From positions 1 through 28,805 of the IMG/VR virus record IMGVR_UViG_3300042141_000103: a stretch of 28,805 bases of DNA. One strand, given 5' to 3'. This document shows, piece after piece, positions 1 to 23,297 of the stretch (within the stretch, counting starts at the first letter, position 1; each line of letters begins with the position of its first letter). A model generated the notes under the pieces. That model was not told the DNA's origin. It did no database searches and was given only the letters and a program-made list of their open reading frames with translations. The stretch is from a virus. The translations under genes were made by a program, and so were the position numbers.

Positions 1-550
1 CGTCCTTGCAACTCTCGACGACGCTCATGCCATGCACGCCGTCGTCGCTCGGCCCACGCATGTGCAGGATCGCATCCTGCGAGTACACCGTCTCGCGGCC
101 GTTCTCCTCGCGGTACTTGTAGCGGAGTCGCCCGTTCTCGATCCGCTCCACCGTCATGCGGGACGGGTGCAGCGGAATGAGTTGATCGACCGCACCCGAC
201 GCCCCCGAGCGGATCTCGCTGTAGGCGTCGCCCCATAGCCCGACGTGGAAAACCGCCTGCTCACGCCACTCGAAGCTCGTCTGCCATTCGTTCGGCTGCT
301 GGTGGAGACGACGATACAGCGGCAACTCGACGGCACGGCGAGTCCCGCGAGCCATGCGTTCGAGCACGTGGAGCGGCAGGCTCGCGACGCTCTCCGACAG
401 GATTCGCAGGCACGCGAACACCGCCGACACTTGCAGGGCGTTGCTCGCGTCGATGCGGATTCCTGCGGCCGAGCGGGACGAGTACTCCTCGTCCCACATT
501 CGCTCCTCACCGGGAAGCCAGAGAATGCGATGCTGTGCGTTGGCGATCAT
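1..550 (-). CDS. HK97-type phage portal protein, N-terminal part (runs off left edge)
   Basis: Portal proteins form the dodecameric ring at the capsid vertex through which DNA is packaged. The frame is open from the ATG at 550 to the window edge, giving 183 residues. It contains the segment SAVFACLRILSESVASLPLH (about residues 42-61), which is typical of the HK97/Phage_portal family N-terminus, then a motif around WGDAYSEI and the LIPLHPSRM strand. The start is fixed by a TGATG overlap with the large terminase stop at 550-552, so the two are translationally coupled. The order terS-terL-portal is canonical for siphovirus-like phages. The C-terminal part, and presumably the protease and major capsid genes, lie beyond position 1. 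The family call is from recognised motifs, not a search. Confidence 0.93.
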   Translation of the reverse strand, partial: MIANAQHRILWLPGEERMWDEEYSSRSAAGIRIDASNALQVSAVFACLRILSESVASLPLHVLERMARGTRRAVELPLYRRLHQQPNEWQTSFEWREQAVFHVGLWGDAYSEIRSGASGAVDQLIPLHPSRMTVERIENGRLRYKYREENGRETVYSQDAILHMRGPSDDGVHGMSVVESCKD

Positions 551-2224
551 CAGACGAAAAAGATCTCAGGGGTGCCCGAGGGCTTTTGCTCCTGCTCGGA
601 TCGCATCCACGAGCCGATGCCCTGGCAGAGGGCGACGATGCCGTCGATACGCTCCGTGCTGGCGGTCTTGCTCGGGTAGATGTTGCCGTGCCGGTCCTCG
701 TGAACAGCGACGTTACCTGCACACCACGTGAGCACTGGATGCCCGCCGTGCCGCACCATGCCGCTCAGCACGAGGTTCTCCAGCGTCTTGGCGGGAGCCG
801 ACATTCCGGGGCCGCCTTGGGGATATCCTCGCACGTCAAGCCCGTCCCCTTGCAGTAAGTTTGCCAACATCTGAGCGTTGAACTTCATATCGACCGCCAA
901 CTGACGCACCCGGTAGCGGTCGCAGATTGCCTTGATGTCGGCGTGGAGCCGGGTGTAGTCGGTGACGTTGCCGTCGGTCACCCGGATCTGCCCGTCGCGA
1001 ATCCACCCGAGGTAGTCCACCTTGTCGCGCTGAGCCCGCTCGACGGCGTTCGCCTCGGGAATCCAGAAGAACGGCAGCACGTCGATCGTGTTGTCCTCGG
1101 GATCGGGGCAGACGAGCACCAAGGCCGAGAGGTCATACGTGCTCGCGAGATCGAGCCCGGCGTAGACGGGACGGTCCCCGAAGTCCCGCAGCGGATTCGC
1201 ACAGCGAGCCCACGCCGCCGGGGCGATCCACCGCGTGTCCTGCGTCGTCCAGACGTTGAGCCGGTAGCGGAGGAATGAGTTGAGCTTCGTCGGCGACTGC
1301 TCGGCCTCGCGGGCGTCGGCCGCGAACGACTCCTCGGTGATCGTCTCGCCGAGCGACGGGTTCGCCTGCCGCCAGACCTTCGGGTCTTTCCACGAACCGT
1401 CGGTCGCACAGTCTGGCGGTGCCGCGTAGATGCAGCCGTAGAATGTCGGATCGTACGCCGGGTCGGCGATGCACTTCTCCGCGTAGGAGTGCTGCTCCCA
1501 GCAGATGCTGCGACGGTCATAGCCAGCCGTGGTGATCGACAGGATGAGCGGTTGACGCCGGGCAGCGCCGCCGTACCGCAACGCATCCCAGAGGCGACGG
1601 TCCCGCTGGGCGTGGAGCTCGTCGAAGAGGAGCATGTGGATGTTGAGACCCTCGGCCCGGAACGCATCCGCCGAGAGCACCCGGTAGAACGAGTTCGTCT
1701 GGCGATCGACGATCGTCTTTCGCGAGTCGATCACTTCGAGCCGCTTCGACAGCGACGGCGACGCACGCACCATCGACGCCGCCTCGCGGTAGATGATGCC
1801 CGCCTGCTCGCGGTCACTGGCAGCGCCGTAGATCTCGGCACCTGGCTCGTTGTCGCAGACGAGGCCGTAGAGGGCGACGCCTGCGAGGGTCGTGCTTTTG
1901 CCCTGTTTCTTCGGAAGCTATTTTCTGGAGCGTGCCCCCGAGCCATTACGGCCCGAGGGCACACCCCAGTTCTATGTATGCGGTGCGGTATTGCCGCGCC
2001 CCGTCCTGTCTCACTCTCGCGAACACATCGGACAGCATCTTCCGCTGCCACTCCAAGAGCAGGAACGGCTGGCCCGCCTTCTGTCCCTTGCTGTGCCGAA
2101 GAATCTCCTCAAAGAACCGACGCACGAGCGTCTCTTTCCTCGGGTCGATCGGCGGGATCAGATCAGCCGTGCGACTTGAGGAGTTCCGCGAGGTCGTCCT
2201 TTGGCGCTTCGTTCTTTTGACCAA
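550..2224 (-). CDS. terL: Terminase large subunit, frame interrupted by a 52-nt hairpin (candidate translational bypass)
   Basis: This is the packaging ATPase/nuclease. Two frames encode it. The upstream part (2224-1967, 86 codons) ends in YIEL. The downstream part begins CCG at 1914 with PKKQGKSTT, the Walker A loop. Walker B is LLFDE near 1630. Nuclease-fold acidic residues lie in AGLDLAS (near 1150), LAVDMKF (near 880) and TERIDGI (near 640). The order and total length (about 540 residues) fit the Terminase_1 family. Translated without recoding, the upstream part adds GCALGP and stops at TAA 1948-1946. Removing 52 nt (1969-1918, or equivalently 1966-1915) gives YIELPKKQ with no other defect. 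The start at 2224 overlaps terS by 62 nt; no better start was seen. Alternatives are a true inactivating insertion or an assembly error, but everything else in the gene is intact. Confidence 0.88.
1918..1969 (-). other. 52-nt hairpin element inside terL, candidate ribosome bypass (byp/hop) sequence
   Basis: On the coding strand, bases 1969-1950 pair with 1944-1925 to form a 20-bp stem without a mismatch. Sixteen pairs are Watson-Crick and four are G-U (1965:1929, 1963:1931, 1956:1938, 1953:1941). The loop is GTAAT (1949-1945). The stem begins exactly on Leu codon CTG (1969-1967). After the stem come AAAATAG and Leu codon CTT (1917-1915), then CCG in the terminase frame. TAA lies in the loop in the incoming frame, and TAG sits directly before CTT in the outgoing frame. 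The interruption shifts the frame because 52 is not a multiple of three. T4 gene 60 has a 50-nt bypass with a takeoff-site hairpin; this layout is similar by inference. No U-tract follows on the coding strand, so a terminator is unlikely. Confidence 0.75.
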
Positions 2225-2722: not shown

Positions 2723-3070
2723 CTATGGGGTGCCTTTCGCACGCGCCGCCGTCTCGTTTGCCGTCTTCCGGCTGTGACACGAATGGCACAAGCACTGACC
2801 GACATCCACGTCATACCGAGAGCGTCCATCGACGCAGACCTTCGTGCCCGGCACGACCGGCGACACGTGGTCCGCGTGGGCGTTGCCCTTCTCGCCGCAC
2901 ACGTGGCCGCACGCCCGGCACGTCCAGTTGTCACGCAGTAGGACAGCACGTCGCCACGCCGAGTGACGCCTGTCGCTGTAGCCCCGCTGGTATCCGTTGG
3001 GGCGATTCTCTTTCCGCTTGATCCGGTAGTTCGGCCGGGCCGCCCGGATGAACTCGATGCGCTGCGGCAT
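2723..3070 (-). CDS. HNH endonuclease next to the terminase
   Basis: The protein has 115 residues. A basic N-terminal region (RIKRKENRPNGYQRGY) precedes a complete HNH module: CRACGHVC (zinc Cys pair, about residues 52-59), the catalytic strand NAHADHVSPVVPG (about 64-76), and the second Cys pair with His, CLCHSCHSRKT (about 93-103). Stand-alone HNH proteins next to terminase genes cut DNA during packaging in HK97-like phages, which is the simplest role here. Because the neighbouring terL carries a possible mobile bypass element, a homing-type role is also worth considering, although nothing in this sequence alone supports that. Stop TAG at 2723-2725. Confidence 0.93.
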   Translation of the reverse strand: MPQRIEFIRAARPNYRIKRKENRPNGYQRGYSDRRHSAWRRAVLLRDNWTCRACGHVCGEKGNAHADHVSPVVPGTKVCVDGRSRYDVDVGQCLCHSCHSRKTANETAARAKGTP

Positions 3071-3074
3071 GACT

Positions 3075-4027
<953 letters not shown>

Positions 4028-4043
<16 letters not shown>

Positions 4044-4954
4044 CGATCCCTCCACCATGCGACCGTCTCCGCGATTCCGTCCTTGAGCGTGACCTTCGGC
4101 TCCCATTCGAGGAGCGTGCGTGCCCGCGTGATGTCCACCGCACGCCTCGGCTGGCCGTCGGGCTTCGATGAGTCCCAGCGAATCTCGCCCATGTATCCGC
4201 ACTCGCCCGCGATCATCTCGGCCAACTTCCTCATCTGCACTTCGCCGCCACCACCCAGGTTGATCGGATCGGGCGTCGTCACAGTCTCCGCTGCTCGCAC
4301 AATTCCCTCGGCAGCGTCATCGACGTGCAGGAACTCGCGCGACGCGCAGCCCGTGCCCCAGAGCGTGACGGGATCGGTGCGGCAGAATCGGCGGATCATC
4401 GCCGGGATAACGTGCGACGATGCCGGGTCAAAGTTGTCGTGCGGGCCGTACAGGTTCGTCGGAATCACTACAGCGCCCGGTAGGGAATACTGCTGGTGGT
4501 ACTGCTTGAGCAGTTCGTAGATCGCTCGCTTCGCAATCCCGTACCCGGCGTTCGTTGGTTCGGGGTAGCCGTTCCACAAGTCGCTCTCGACGAACGGCAC
4601 GGGCGGGTCGAGCGGGTAACTGCACACCGTACCGACGACGACGACCTTCTCGACCTCGAACCGTCGGCACTGCTCGACGACGTTCACGCCCATCGCCAAG
4701 TTCGCGTACGTGAACCGTCCCGGCGTCTTCATGTTCGCGCCGATGCCGCCGACCTCGGCCGCGAGGTGCAGCACGACCTCGGGCCGGTGGTCGTCGAATA
4801 GGTCGATCGTGTCCTCTTCGCTGGTCAGGTCGCACGCGACCCTGCGAGGCACGATCACGTGACGGCATCCGCGACCGTGCAGCACGCGGCAGACCGCCTT
4901 GCCCAGAAACCCGGCACCGCCCGTGACGAGGATTCGCTTCGTGTTGAGTTCCAT
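4028..4954 (-). CDS. fcl: GDP-L-fucose synthase (epimerase/reductase)
   Basis: This enzyme makes GDP-L-fucose from the Gmd product by 3,5-epimerisation and NADPH reduction. The 308-residue SDR protein has [14 protein letters not shown] at the N-terminus (about residues 8-21), [14 protein letters not shown] (about 60-73), the Ser strand VGTVCSYP, and YGIAKRA with the catalytic Tyr and Lys (about 136-142). These are followed by [10 protein letters not shown], typical of this enzyme, and VIPAMIRRF. The cofactor and catalytic residues I can see are all present. It lies directly upstream of gmd in transcription order and overlaps it by 16 nt. Together they supply the donor that a neighbouring fucosyltransferase-like enzyme could use, but no fucosyltransferase is proven here. 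Confidence 0.95.
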
Positions 4955-17270: not shown

Positions 17271-17482
17271 CAGTCGAGCGTGACTCCATCCGCCTCGTGG
17301 ATCATGCGGCGGATCGCTTCGGCGAGCCGTCTCGTCTCGGGGTGCGGATCGCCGTGCTTCATGACCGACCTGCAGTGCTGGTCGATGTCCCAGAGCAGCA
17401 ATCGGGCGGCGCTGCCTTCGAGGGCGGCGCGGTGCTCGCTCTCCTCATCCGGCAGCGTGTAGGTCAGCGTGGCGGTTGGCAT
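17270..17482 (-). CDS. Small acidic phage protein, tandem paralogue 2
   Basis: The 70-residue protein begins MPTATLTYTLPDEESEHRAA, sharing its layout with the neighbour: MPTATL, LP, E, R-A-EGS, then DIDQHCRSVMKHG where the neighbour has DDHLATEIKGG. The C-terminal half, RRLAEAIRRMIHEADGV, differs. Sequence identity is clear by eye over the first 45 residues but low overall, so the duplication is old. The start at 17482 (rather than the upstream 17497) gives the shared MPTATL N-terminus. The first 19 nt overlap the end of the serine protease gene. Confidence 0.75.
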   Translation of the reverse strand: MPTATLTYTLPDEESEHRAALEGSAARLLLWDIDQHCRSVMKHGDPHPETRRLAEAIRRMIHEADGVTLD

Positions 17483-18255
17483 CCCGGCATCGTGCATGGC
17501 TCGTCAAGTTCGCCGACCACGCTGCGAATCCAATCGAGGTAGAGCACCACGCGGGTGTGACCCGACTCCTCGCCGAGGACGTACTTCGTCTTCCCGCCGA
17601 CCCTCGCGACGTAGGAGTTGACGCCCACGAGCCTCGTGCTGCCGTCGATCGCCGTCGCCCAGAGCGGGCCGCCCGAGTCGCCCGGCGCGATGCACGCCGG
17701 GAGCGGGCCCGCGTCTGGCGTCCTGCGAATCGGGCAGACGTACACGCCGTGCTCGATCGACCCGAGGACGCACGTCCCGGCTCGCAGCCGCTGGTCGCCT
17801 CCCGTGAGCCCGCGAGTCAGGCTCCCGGTCATCCCGTACCCCGCAGCCGCAGCGACGCTGCCGAGACGCTCGGTGCCGTCGGCGAGCCTCGGGTAGACCT
17901 CGGAGTGCCGATGCCGCCCGAGCCGCACCAGGGCGATGTCGTGCCACCCGTGGATGCCAGTCCATTCGGGATGCCGCACGACGCGGTCGCACGCGATCCT
18001 ATCGCCGCCGATGACGACCGTCACCGCCGTCATCTCGTGCGGGACGTGGGCCGCCGTGAGCACCCAGTGCGGCGAGATGAGCGTGCCAGACCCGGCGAGC
18101 GGGACGCCATCGGCGTTGTTGCCGACGACCCGCACGACGTAGCCCGAGAACGTCGCACCGTAGTCGAGGTAGCGTGAGTCGCCCTTCGAATCGTCAATCG
18201 TGGCGGCAGATGCCGCGAGCGCCGACACGGCGATGAGCGTCGCCACGAGTCGCAT
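17464..18255 (-). CDS. Secreted trypsin-like serine protease
   Basis: The 263-residue protein has an N-terminal signal peptide (MRLVATLIAVSALAASAA). The chymotrypsin-fold triad is present: His70 in LTAAHV, Asp106 in HDIALVRL and Ser194 in APGDSGGPL. Several Cys residues in the C-terminal half (CDRVV, TCVLG, VCPIRR, ACIAPG) could form disulphides. No membrane anchor follows, so it should be released. Such proteases are unusual cargo for a tailed phage; it could be a lysogenic conversion gene acting on host or community proteins, or a virion/lysis factor. A candidate operator (18318-18334) lies upstream. Confidence 0.9.
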   Translation of the reverse strand: MRLVATLIAVSALAASAATIDDSKGDSRYLDYGATFSGYVVRVVGNNADGVPLAGSGTLISPHWVLTAAHVPHEMTAVTVVIGGDRIACDRVVRHPEWTGIHGWHDIALVRLGRHRHSEVYPRLADGTERLGSVAAAAGYGMTGSLTRGLTGGDQRLRAGTCVLGSIEHGVYVCPIRRTPDAGPLPACIAPGDSGGPLWATAIDGSTRLVGVNSYVARVGGKTKYVLGEESGHTRVVLYLDWIRSVVGELDEPCTMPGCQPPR

Positions 18256-19523: not shown

Positions 19524-20645
19524 TCAGTCGTTCGACAGTGGCATGATCACGCCGGTGTAGACGCCGCCGTTGCGCAGAACGCACGCGGACTGCGCGTCCA
19601 CGAGCTCGACCGTGATGTGCGGCCCCTCGTCCGTCGCGATGCCACGGAGCCACTCGACGACGAATACGGGATCGAGCTTGACCTTCACCGGGTCACCGCC
19701 ACTGACGACCTCGATCGTCACGTCGCTCTGCCCGTACTCCGCGCTCTGCCCGTGCAGCGTCACGCCGTCGGCCGAGAACGTGAAATCCACGCCCTTCGAC
19801 TGCTCGCTGGTCACGATCGCCGCCGCCCTGGTCGCCGCCATGAGCTCGTCCCGATCGACTACGGTCTCGATCGCACCGGCCCGGCCCGTCGGCAGCACGT
19901 CACGCCAGCGAGGGAACCGACCGGCGATCTGCCGTGCCGTCACGACGCACCCCGGCAGCGTGGCGACGAGCTCGTGCTCGCTCGCCTCCAGTTGCACCGC
20001 GTCGTCGCCTCGGGCCGCCACGCTCGCGAGCGACGCGAGCACCCTCGCCGGGACGAGGGCCGAGCCGTCGTCCACCGCCTGGTCGTGCTCCACCGCCACG
20101 TGCGAGAGACGACGCCCGTCGGTCGCCACGAACGAGCAGTCGCCGCCGAGCACCTCGATGAGCACCGCGCCGAGGGCGTAGCGGCTCGAGTCGCTGTCAG
20201 TCGCGTAGACGCACGCCTTCACCGCACGGGCGAACTGGTCGCACGGGACACGCACGAGCGTCCTGAGCGGCTCGTGGTTCCACGTCGGCCACTCGGCGGC
20301 GCTCTCGACCGGGAGCCGCCACGTGCCACGCCCGGCGGTCACGACGCACGACGTGCCGTCTGGAGTGATCGTCACCTCCTCGGAGCGAGCCTCGGCGAGG
20401 ATCGCCCGCAGCCGCGCGAACGGCAGCAGGATCGGCTCGCCGTCATACGGCACATCGACCGCGATCTGGAGTTCGAGGTCAGTCGCCGTCAGCGTGCCCC
20501 GGCCAAGCAGCACGCACGCGAGAATCGGCTTTGCCGGTCGAGTCGGCACCGCTGCCGCCACGTCCGCGAGTGCCTGCTTGAGAGTCGGCGTTGACAGCAC
20601 GATGCCAGTACTCCTTCGCCGCTTCGTAGCCGTTGCCGTCGTCAT
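19524..20645 (-). CDS. dnaN: DNA polymerase III beta sliding clamp homologue
   Basis: This 373-residue protein matches the length of bacterial clamps (366-378). Three repeat domains can be traced: the first starts GIVLSTPTLKQALADVAAAV, containing PAKPILACVLL; the second starts near VPCDQFARAVKACVYATDSD and has ALGAVLIEV and CSFVATDGRRLSHVAVE (the usual clamp TDGHRL position); the third starts near ETVVDRDELMAATRAAAIVT. The C-terminus VYTGVIMPLSND resembles the clamp ending in which the client pocket sits. GGAGGAG precedes ATG 20645. Phages usually rely on the host clamp; no phage polymerase is seen in this window, so it probably works with host Pol III, by inference. Confidence 0.93.
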   Translation of the reverse strand: MTTATATKRRRSTGIVLSTPTLKQALADVAAAVPTRPAKPILACVLLGRGTLTATDLELQIAVDVPYDGEPILLPFARLRAILAEARSEEVTITPDGTSCVVTAGRGTWRLPVESAAEWPTWNHEPLRTLVRVPCDQFARAVKACVYATDSDSSRYALGAVLIEVLGGDCSFVATDGRRLSHVAVEHDQAVDDGSALVPARVLASLASVAARGDDAVQLEASEHELVATLPGCVVTARQIAGRFPRWRDVLPTGRAGAIETVVDRDELMAATRAAAIVTSEQSKGVDFTFSADGVTLHGQSAEYGQSDVTIEVVSGGDPVKVKLDPVFVVEWLRGIATDEGPHITVELVDAQSACVLRNGGVYTGVIMPLSND

Positions 20646-20742
20646 GTCCTCTCCTCCTGAGTGACGCACCAACAATGATTCCGACGGCGAACGTCGCCGA
20701 CTGAATCACGATCCCGATTGCGATGAGGGCGAGCTCGGTCAT
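20479..20742 (-). CDS. Small membrane protein overlapping the dnaN start
   Basis: From ATG 20742 the frame encodes MTELALIAIGIVIQSATFAV GIIVG, a clear membrane span, then RRRG and a charged, Gly-rich tail. The tail (20645-20479) is entirely embedded in dnaN in another frame and probably carries little function. The start is supported by an ATGA overlap with the upstream gene. The first 35 residues look real. Confidence 0.5.
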   Translation of the reverse strand: MTELALIAIGIVIQSATFAVGIIVGASLRRRGHDDGNGYEAAKEYWHRAVNADSQAGTRGRGGSGADSTGKADSRVRAAWPGHADGD

Positions 20743-22092: not shown

Positions 22093-23001
22093 CTACTTGA
22101 TCGATACAGAGTTGGCTTCAACCGCGAGGCAGTCTCCGTGACACCGCTGCGGGTAGCAGTGACACACGAGCACCTTTCCGGTTAGTTCCCCAGCCTCGAT
22201 CCGCTCGGCGATTGATGGCTTGTTTGGAAGGTAGTGACGTTCGTATGCGTCGCACACTTCGTCACGGTCGCCGTCTTCGTCAAGCACAAACGGGTTGCCG
22301 TACCTTGTGCTGCGGTCAATGCGAACAGCTAGCCGCTCGCGCTCAGCCCAAGCGATTAGGTTCTTGTCGGCTGAGGCATTGGCTACCACGGTGAGGCCAG
22401 ACTTCACCTCGGCTTGGCGGTCGCGCTCGTCCTGACGCCAGTCGTCGGTTGGCTTCTTAGCGACTTCGCGCTTGGCGTCCTGAAGAGTGATCTTTCCGGC
22501 CTTGAGACGCTCGAACACCTCCGGGGCTTCGGCTTTCACCTTCTTAGCGTCCGCAACGTACTGGCGATTTACACCGACAGATGTCGCCGCCTCTGAGACT
22601 GCCTTGCGGCCGTTTGCTGGAATAGCTTGTTCAACTTTTTGAACAACCTTTTGGCCGCGGCCGTGCTCCTTGCCTGCCTCCCGTTGCCGCCGCTTCGCGT
22701 CGGCTGCGAAGAACGGCTCCAGTTCGGCCGCAACGGCCGCCAGCGCGCCCTTGTTCATATGTCGCCGGCGGTCATTCATCGCCACGGCAAAAGCCGTCGG
22801 CTCGTCGCCCGTGTATTCCTTCGTATTCGGCTCAACGCCTGCTATCTGGCAGGCCGCCCAGCGGTTGCGGCCGTCAAGAATCTTGCCCTCGTACAGCCAG
22901 ACCGGCACGAGCTGCCCATTCTTGCGGATGTCGTCGGCTAGCTCTTGGAGCTTGGCCTCGTCCATCATGGGCCAAACGTCGGCAATCGGGTGGTGCTTCA
23001 T
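22093..23001 (-). CDS. ParB-like nuclease domain fused to DUF4326
   Basis: The 302-residue protein begins MKHHPIADVWPMMDEAKLQE. The ParB/Srx core is about residues 5-95 with ILDGRNRWAACQIAG, the GRxR box of ParB and sulfiredoxin-like enzymes. A helical HTH region follows (NGRKAVSEAATSVGVNRQYV, about 128-147). The last about 85 residues form a DUF4326: STRYGNPFVLDED, then ELTGKVLVCHCYPQRCHGDC with a Cys/His set. ParB proteins of phages have been linked to DNA processing, and DUF4326 is uncharacterised. Both in one polypeptide is notable. The coding sequence is AT-richer than its neighbours. Start at 23001 overlaps the HNH stop as ATGA. Confidence 0.85.
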   Translation of the reverse strand: MKHHPIADVWPMMDEAKLQELADDIRKNGQLVPVWLYEGKILDGRNRWAACQIAGVEPNTKEYTGDEPTAFAVAMNDRRRHMNKGALAAVAAELEPFFAADAKRRQREAGKEHGRGQKVVQKVEQAIPANGRKAVSEAATSVGVNRQYVADAKKVKAEAPEVFERLKAGKITLQDAKREVAKKPTDDWRQDERDRQAEVKSGLTVVANASADKNLIAWAERERLAVRIDRSTRYGNPFVLDEDGDRDEVCDAYERHYLPNKPSIAERIEAGELTGKVLVCHCYPQRCHGDCLAVEANSVSIK

Positions 23002-23297
23002 CTTCTGTGAATCCTTTCGTGACAGGCTCGGCAAACAAGGAGGTAGTCGGAGTCGTGATACTCCCACGGCTCTAAATCAGCGTCATATCTCACGTGGTGA
23101 ACAACAGTTGCTGCCCCGTCGATTCCGCACGCTTCGCACTTACGCCCGCGAGCGTTGAATAAGGCCATCCGTCTGGCTTGCCATCTACGATCAGCGAGCT
23201 TGAGTCGATAAGTGGCGGGGTCGTTTTTTTTAGACGATGTATGTGAACAACGAGCCACGCCGTCCGATGAGTGCTCGCCGTTCCAATGAGAAGCCAC
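22998..23297 (-). CDS. HNH nuclease domain, probably made as a -1 frameshift extension of the upstream gene
   Basis: The reading frame from the A-run at 23224-23231 to the stop at 22998 encodes NDPATYRLKLADRRWQARRM (a basic helix), then CEACG, TVVHHV (the HNH His pair) and CRACHERIHRR, a complete small HNH domain. Residues read upstream of the A-run in this frame look unlike protein (shadow of the other gene), so the listed ATG at 23297 is doubtful. The stop overlaps the ParB ATG as ATGA, which supports translation of this frame. A -1 slip at A AAA AAA would join it to the upstream protein (302 residues in total). A sequencing indel in the A-run is the alternative. Confidence 0.75.
   Translation of the reverse strand: MASHWNGEHSSDGVARCSHTSSKKNDPATYRLKLADRRWQARRMALFNARGRKCEACGIDGAATVVHHVRYDADLEPWEYHDSDYLLVCRACHERIHRR

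Follow-up and report, generated by a model that had tools for sequence, protein, structure and literature searches.

How can a phage make a complete large terminase subunit from a terL gene whose reading frame is broken, at the Walker A motif, by a short and very stable hairpin? The question is raised by a freshwater phage, IMG/VR virus record IMGVR_UViG_3300042141_000103 (28.8 kb), of which the stretch analysed here, called the window, covers 28,805 nucleotides. A first-pass annotation of this DNA had proposed a ribosome hop from one leucine codon to another across the hairpin, in the manner of T4 gene 60. Comparison with related phages supports much of this proposal, and places the hairpin in a family of apparently mobile elements that the ribosome probably skips.

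The interrupted terminase gene

In the window, terL is encoded on the minus strand and is interrupted by a 52-nt block at YIEL^PKKQGKST. The 5′ part (1970..2224, minus strand) ends with RTAYIE in the incoming frame; its upstream limit is set at the first TTG, and the 5′ part of a near-identical record (L002) matches residues 1–86 of the uninterrupted TerL of L005. The 3′ part (550..1914, minus strand) opens with PKKQGKST in the outgoing frame and continues to the stop codon. It corresponds to protein P0001, which matches the Pfam families TerL_ATPase (6.6e-23) and TerL_nuclease (7.5e-39), and an alignment of uninterrupted relatives matches the solved terminase large subunit 6z6d (1.5e-105).

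The block itself (1918..1969, minus strand) is missing in the nearest relatives, and those without an insert have GAR CTN CCN contiguous at this point. Read on the minus strand from 1969 to 1918, its sequence is CTGGGGTGTGCCCTCGGGCC-GTAAT-GGCTCGGGGGCACGCTCCAG-AAAATAG. The first 45 nt (1925..1969, minus strand; CTGGGGTGTGCCCTCGGGCC-GTAAT-GGCTCGGGGGCACGCTCCAG) form a hairpin, identified by its fold, by covariation in the family and by model R2 (61.8 bits). The remaining AAAATAG (1918..1924, minus strand) is a single-stranded tail that would space the stem from the landing codon; relatives also have such tails. As RNA, the block adopts a stem of 20 bp with no interruption, closed by the 5-nt loop GUAAU, at –42.5 kcal/mol against –26.3 for the opposite strand (z = –9.3; none of 200 shuffles folds equally well). 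The four non-Watson–Crick pairs of the stem are all G-U, and this holds for the mRNA strand only. No other stem in the window comes close in length, the next having 13 bp. The incoming frame reads YIELGCALGP and ends at a TAA within the loop (1946..1948, minus strand), which closes ORF 1946-2224, while the outgoing frame has TAG immediately upstream of CTT. The frame break, the stem–loop–tail layout, the two stops and the otherwise intact terminase of the first-pass annotation are thus all borne out. The assembly error considered there is not, as an identical insert occurs in a second metagenome record, IMGVR_UViG_3300042111_000074 (L002 above), with 99.74% DNA identity across 2.7 kb.

In a predicted structure of the L005 TerL (mean pLDDT 84), strand 1 spans residues 81–85, a helix follows the P-loop at 92–106, and the window's insertion point is L86/P87. 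Therefore, extra residues translated from the insert would be expected to disrupt the ATP site. A second terL is found neither in the window nor in the contigs of two other carriers of an insert at this position, L031 and L041.

The closest TerL proteins among genome records come from Planctomycetota assemblies (57–72% identity), which is suggestive, and no more, of planctomycete hosts for the carrier phages. Adjoining the terminase genes, the window encodes a GDP-mannose 4,6-dehydratase and a second sugar epimerase (3075-4954), and this suggests that the phage has a nucleotide-sugar metabolism. Elsewhere it encodes a trypsin-like serine protease (17464-18255; Pfam Trypsin, 9e-14), a homologue of the DNA polymerase III beta sliding clamp with three Pfam domains (19524-20675), and a protein with a C-terminal DUF4326 and an N-terminal half that looks ParB-like by eye (22093-23067).

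A family of elements at five sites

The first 80 TerL relatives are mostly uninterrupted, including ones about 99% identical in protein. At the window's site, different hairpins occur in L031 and L041 (83–84% identical); L030 is a near copy of L031 (99.98% identical) with the same element. In L027, L054, L055 and L056, a 51-nt hairpin lies elsewhere in terL, at RRLW^DALRYGG. A search pattern built from these two groups of elements, at sites A and B respectively, matched 58 contigs in IMG/VR. Taken together, the IMG/VR scans give an element in terL in 42 contigs from 36 metagenome datasets. Four insertion sites are used in this gene: A (YIEL^PKK, four contigs), B (RLW^DAL, 35), C (DEL^HAQ, three) and D (EGL^NIH), the last in L224, whose single terL carries elements at both B and D. 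A fifth site is found in L268, where a gene other than terL, glycosyltransferase-like as read from its sequence, is broken exactly at GAFW^DQ; L243 has its uninterrupted homologue. The total is about 22 distinct elements. Pattern searches with the left and the right flank of site A brought no further members, and searches of isolate phages gave no match to site B or to the gene interrupted in L268. The search of related terminases for similar hairpins, advocated in the first-pass annotation, has therefore been productive; the single element that it described is real, but is one member of a family.

All members share one layout, with a 20-bp stem, a 4–5-nt loop and an A-rich tail of 4–12 nt. 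The skipped lengths are 52, 52 and 49 nt at site A, 50 and 50 at C, 50 at D and 50 in L268; at site B they are 50 nt in six forms, 51 in seven and 52 in two, one site B sequence being common to 14 contigs. TerL alignments stop and restart at the same residue (e.g. 195 then 196) in differing frames, so that native frames flank a non-coding gap, as in T4. Since site B alone has lengths of 50, 51 and 52 nt (0, 1 and 2 modulo 3) between native flanks, a fixed frameshift is excluded. To judge from these comparisons of sequence, the block has to be left out whole.

Conservation and specificity of the stem

Across an alignment of 11 diverse elements, 99.1% of the cells are paired, and 10 of the 20 pairs show two-sided compensatory changes. 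The covariation score is 0.576 versus 0.246 after shuffling, a value that none of 500 shuffles reaches, and slid partners score far lower. In 91 uninterrupted relatives (0.52 Mb), model R2 has no match, and hairpins of at least 17 bp in 1.35 Mb of the loci studied here are mostly the family's elements. In 392 Planctomycetota genomes, R2 gave no match among candidates scored after a pre-filter (16 per genome), and the search pattern gave three matches, not above the reversed control; therefore, chromosomal copies are not indicated.

Other structures were considered and set aside. Model R1 matched GGGGTCAGACCCC repeats in one planctomycete genome, a dispersed chromosomal palindrome that resembles the elements in size only. 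Dispersed palindromes in the Planctomycetota genome G055 (e.g. L205–L214; CTGGGGTCAGACCCCGTTCCGAAGCGGAACGGCGTCAGACCCCAG) have the size of the phage hairpins but a different sequence. A strong hairpin of the form CTGGG...CCCAG in the mycobacteriophages Omnicron, Rando14 and Larva (L223, L253 and L255) is ordinary and unrelated; it is flanked by two genes for minor tail proteins. An intrinsic terminator does not account for the window hairpin, a U-run being absent downstream on both strands. Finally, an upstream mini-stem, GCGGCAATACCGC, is identical in the three site A carriers and recalls the T4 5′ stem-loop, but similar folds in uninterrupted relatives deprive it of evidential value.

Mobility and neighbouring endonucleases

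In the TerL tree, the three site A carriers are separated by uninterrupted kin, which forces three changes. Around the insert, the window has a tract of local exchange (1895..2033, minus strand) that resembles the insert-bearing L031 and L041, not the otherwise nearest terL genes. Compared with ten uninterrupted near relatives, private substitutions number 14 in 87 nt around the insert versus 20 in 1448 nt elsewhere (p 7e-10), and those matching L031 or L041 are 11 of 14 in the tract versus 4 of 20 elsewhere (p 0.0013). For site B, divergence between carriers in the 30 nt preceding the element is 0.063, versus 0.209 in uninterrupted controls. Flanking DNA has thus been co-converted with the element both in the window tract and in the 30 nt adjacent to site B.

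Candidate agents of transfer adjoin some of the terminase genes. In L031, a free-standing gene separates terS from terL, lying directly upstream of the latter, and its product resembles HNH/endonuclease VII proteins; no further relatives of it were found in IMG/VR. A different HNH type is encoded close to terS/terL in L041 and L222, the L041 type being present also in some phages without an insert. No endonuclease of the L031, L041 or L222 type was found in the window, whose only HNH gene is a short one that lies upstream of terS (2723-3070); L031 and L041 have genes of this kind too. Collectively, the patchy distribution, the conversion tracts in the flanks and the presence of HNH genes beside terL in some of the carriers point, at the level of sequence, to mobile elements.

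Proposed take-off and landing codons, and two other possible routes to an uninterrupted protein

The codon at the base of the stem is CTG at sites A, C and D, where it occupies stem nucleotides 1–3, and TGG at site B and in L268, where it occupies nucleotides 2–4. The stem therefore begins at the putative take-off codon or one nucleotide before it, and the stem-loop includes this codon throughout the family. In the window, the proposed take-off codon is the CTG (Leu) at 1967..1969 (minus strand), the first codon of the stem, and the proposed landing codon, suggested by the native TerL frame LPKKQGKST, is the CTT (Leu) at 1915..1917 (minus strand); translation would then resume at CCG (1914-1912). 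This CTG-to-CTT parse is one consistent parsing. The triplet preceding the resume codon matches the take-off codon exactly at site C (two forms), at site D and in L041, where it is CTG, and synonymously in the window; it does not match in L031 (CCG) or in L268 (TGC). At site B, TGG is paired with AGA, CGC, CGA or TGA, and none of the 15 distinct elements has a matching landing codon. Consequently, the leucine-to-leucine hop of the first-pass annotation fits the window and sites C and D, but fails as a rule for L031 and all of site B. Part of the CTG match may even reflect a preference for insertion before a Leu CTG, because the native residue at A, C and D is leucine.

Site B has regularities of its own. 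An Arg codon (AGA, CGC or CGA) precedes GAY in 14 of the 15 distinct forms, and GGC stands at –12 in 11 of them. The site B element of L239 (3021-3075) has TGA before the resume codon, either a natural variant or a sequencing error.

The codon that follows the take-off codon is GGG, GGT, GGC, GCT or GTC, and no consistent stop or rare codon was found there across the family elements, unlike in T4. The upstream peptides differ among the five sites; therefore, a shared nascent-peptide signal of the T4 type is unlikely, and the element looks self-contained.

These same features bear on the possibility that the hairpin is excised from the mRNA and the ends joined before translation, as a minimal structure-guided intron. 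Excision would tolerate any insert length and need no codon match, which suits site B and L031. It is nevertheless unlikely: the 52 nt make up a single hairpin, in which a group I/II catalytic core is not found and could not fit, and the implied 5′ junction would follow stem nucleotide 3 at A, C and D but nucleotide 4 at B and in L268, with a 3′ junction 7–12 nt beyond the stem. Such junctions would be odd for an endonuclease because they track codon phase and not a fixed structural position, and this tracking argues for the ribosome over a structure-specific nuclease. We know of no matching RNA-processing system in bacteria.

Alternatively, the ribosome might leave from a codon inside the hairpin, before the loop, and residues would be added to TerL. 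Matching codons can be found for such a route, from CCG-TAA to CCG in the window, from CCA to CCA in L041 and from GGC-TGA to GGC in the 11 site B elements with GGC at –12, where another GGC precedes the loop; a stop following the take-off codon would also resemble T4. The scheme is improbable, more so than excision, since it breaks down in several members. L222 has AGC and AGA in place of GGC; in L227 and L268, an in-frame stop comes two codons after the one at the stem base, with no matching landing site; the resumed frame of L239 would hit TGA; and CTG to CTG is an exact fit at sites C and D. Moreover, five residues would be added at the junction of strand and P-loop in the window, and eight at site B.

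Selection on the interrupted gene

Outside the elements, the TerL flanks are stop-free, the sole stop in some alignments being taken as the in-frame loop TGA of 51-nt forms. For 27 site B contigs, median dN/dS is 0.09 on the 3′ side and 0.08 on the 5′ side (median dS 0.9 and 0.66), values that are approximate, as they were computed pairwise on short, ungapped fragments. Conservation of the flanks partly predates insertion, because the elements spread by conversion. Between the window and L002, the 3′ part of terL differs by five synonymous changes and one non-synonymous change.

Two further explanations fare poorly. With a +1 frameshift or stop read-through, the hairpin would be translated as 16–17 extra residues, and the +1 frame is indeed open across the inserts of L031 and L041. 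A programmed frameshift of this kind, with one fixed shift and an open shifted frame, does not describe the family: the outgoing frame of the window has its TAG just before CTT, site B members need all three shifts, and the residues would be added at the junction of strand 81–85 and the P-loop in the L005 model. It is very improbable, and a dead or split gene, inactivated by the insertion in a decaying or helper-dependent phage, has an equally slight chance. Both frames of the window do stop absent recoding, but the 42 carrier contigs in 36 datasets, the stop-free flanks with low dN/dS, the compensated stems, the presence of up to two elements in one gene, the mainly synonymous differences from L002 and the lack of another terL all speak against decay. 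An assembly or sequencing artefact, conceivable at short palindromes, has a negligible chance given the same element in independent datasets (the window and L002; L030 and L031; the 14 contigs with one site B sequence).

A portable element probably skipped by the ribosome

The explanation that best accommodates these data, with a probability of roughly 0.7, is that the hairpins are portable, mobile translational-bypass elements, which would be tolerated in essential phage genes through ribosome bypass. The ribosome would decode up to the stem-base codon (CTG in the window, CTG or TGG in the family) and leave it while the stem re-forms and sequesters this codon. With the hairpin looped out, the peptidyl-tRNA would re-engage just beyond the stem, and coding would resume 7–12 nt past it in the native frame, regardless of insert length. 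The element would pass between phages by recombination, together with short flanking DNA, and HNH homing-type endonucleases adjoining the terminase genes plausibly drive this transfer in some lineages. It is somewhat less assured, though still favoured, that the elements form a third family of utilised bypasses, in which the hairpin alone would suffice and neither a gene-specific peptide signal nor strict codon matching would be needed.

If true, utilised bypassing would have a third system besides those of T4 gene 60 and yeast mitochondria; it would be the first large system among bacteria, and its landing rule might be new. The approximately 22 distinct elements, varied in length, loop, tail and landing triplet, provide comparative data on the requirements of bypass, and could distinguish the necessary features (stem, take-off codon, tail) from the dispensable ones (stop codon, peptide, codon match). 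On the practical side, terL and other essential phage genes come out of gene callers in pieces, and packaging genes are consequently mis-annotated. Should the skip occur at the RNA level instead, a minimal hairpin removed from mRNA would represent a new kind of intron.

Comparison with known systems

To our knowledge, T4 gene 60 is essentially the one well-proven case of utilised bypassing among bacteria and bacterial viruses. A full-text literature search, outside which most subscription papers lie, gave no report of a hairpin family such as the present one. The first-pass annotation, which knew of no such element in a terminase gene, was not quite right: the terminase of Streptomyces phage Hau3 has been proposed to be decoded by bypassing, although, going by a review (PMC5009743), not as the skip of a deleterious insert. 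The Hau3 proposal, as presented there, rests on a UUA codon and a KGWG context. A possible bypass has also been described at the tape-measure gene of Corndog, beside an HNH insertion (PMC4351075).

Inteins at the TerL Walker A motif are likewise mobile and reside in the same gene. In L022, L057, L058 and L269, the intein terminates (...HN^S) at the P-loop, with a few residues between its end and site A; the terL of L269 also contains a hairpin at site B. Inteins are translated and then spliced as protein, whereas the hairpin contains stops and displaces the reading frame.

The mitochondrial byps of Magnusiomyces capitatus (81 inserts, some with unmatched take-off and landing codons; PMC5009743) resemble the family in being many short related inserts at many positions, proposed to be tolerated at translation. 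They differ from it in that the phage elements occur on phage contigs, would be handled by a bacterial host ribosome and share one conserved, covarying 20-bp stem.

The nearest parallel is T4 gene 60 itself, with its 50-nt coding gap from GGA to GGA. Both systems have a gap of about 50 nt in an essential phage gene, a hairpin at the take-off codon and out-of-frame ORFs to be joined, and in some carriers of the family a putative homing endonuclease gene lies nearby, like mobA in T4 (PMC5009743, PMC2988022). In T4, ribosomes slide with high processivity over gaps of as much as 56 nt (PMC11194080). Unlike in T4, the take-off codon here marks the start of a 20-bp stem and is not directly followed by a stop, landing codons are often unmatched, and the five contexts have no obvious common peptide signal. 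Collectively, about 22 elements at five sites, lengths of all three classes modulo 3, compensated stems and native frames strongly support the T4-like translational skip of the first-pass annotation, while its codon rule and its uniqueness are to be amended: where T4 gene 60 is a single case, here a family of elements inhabits two genes in many phages.
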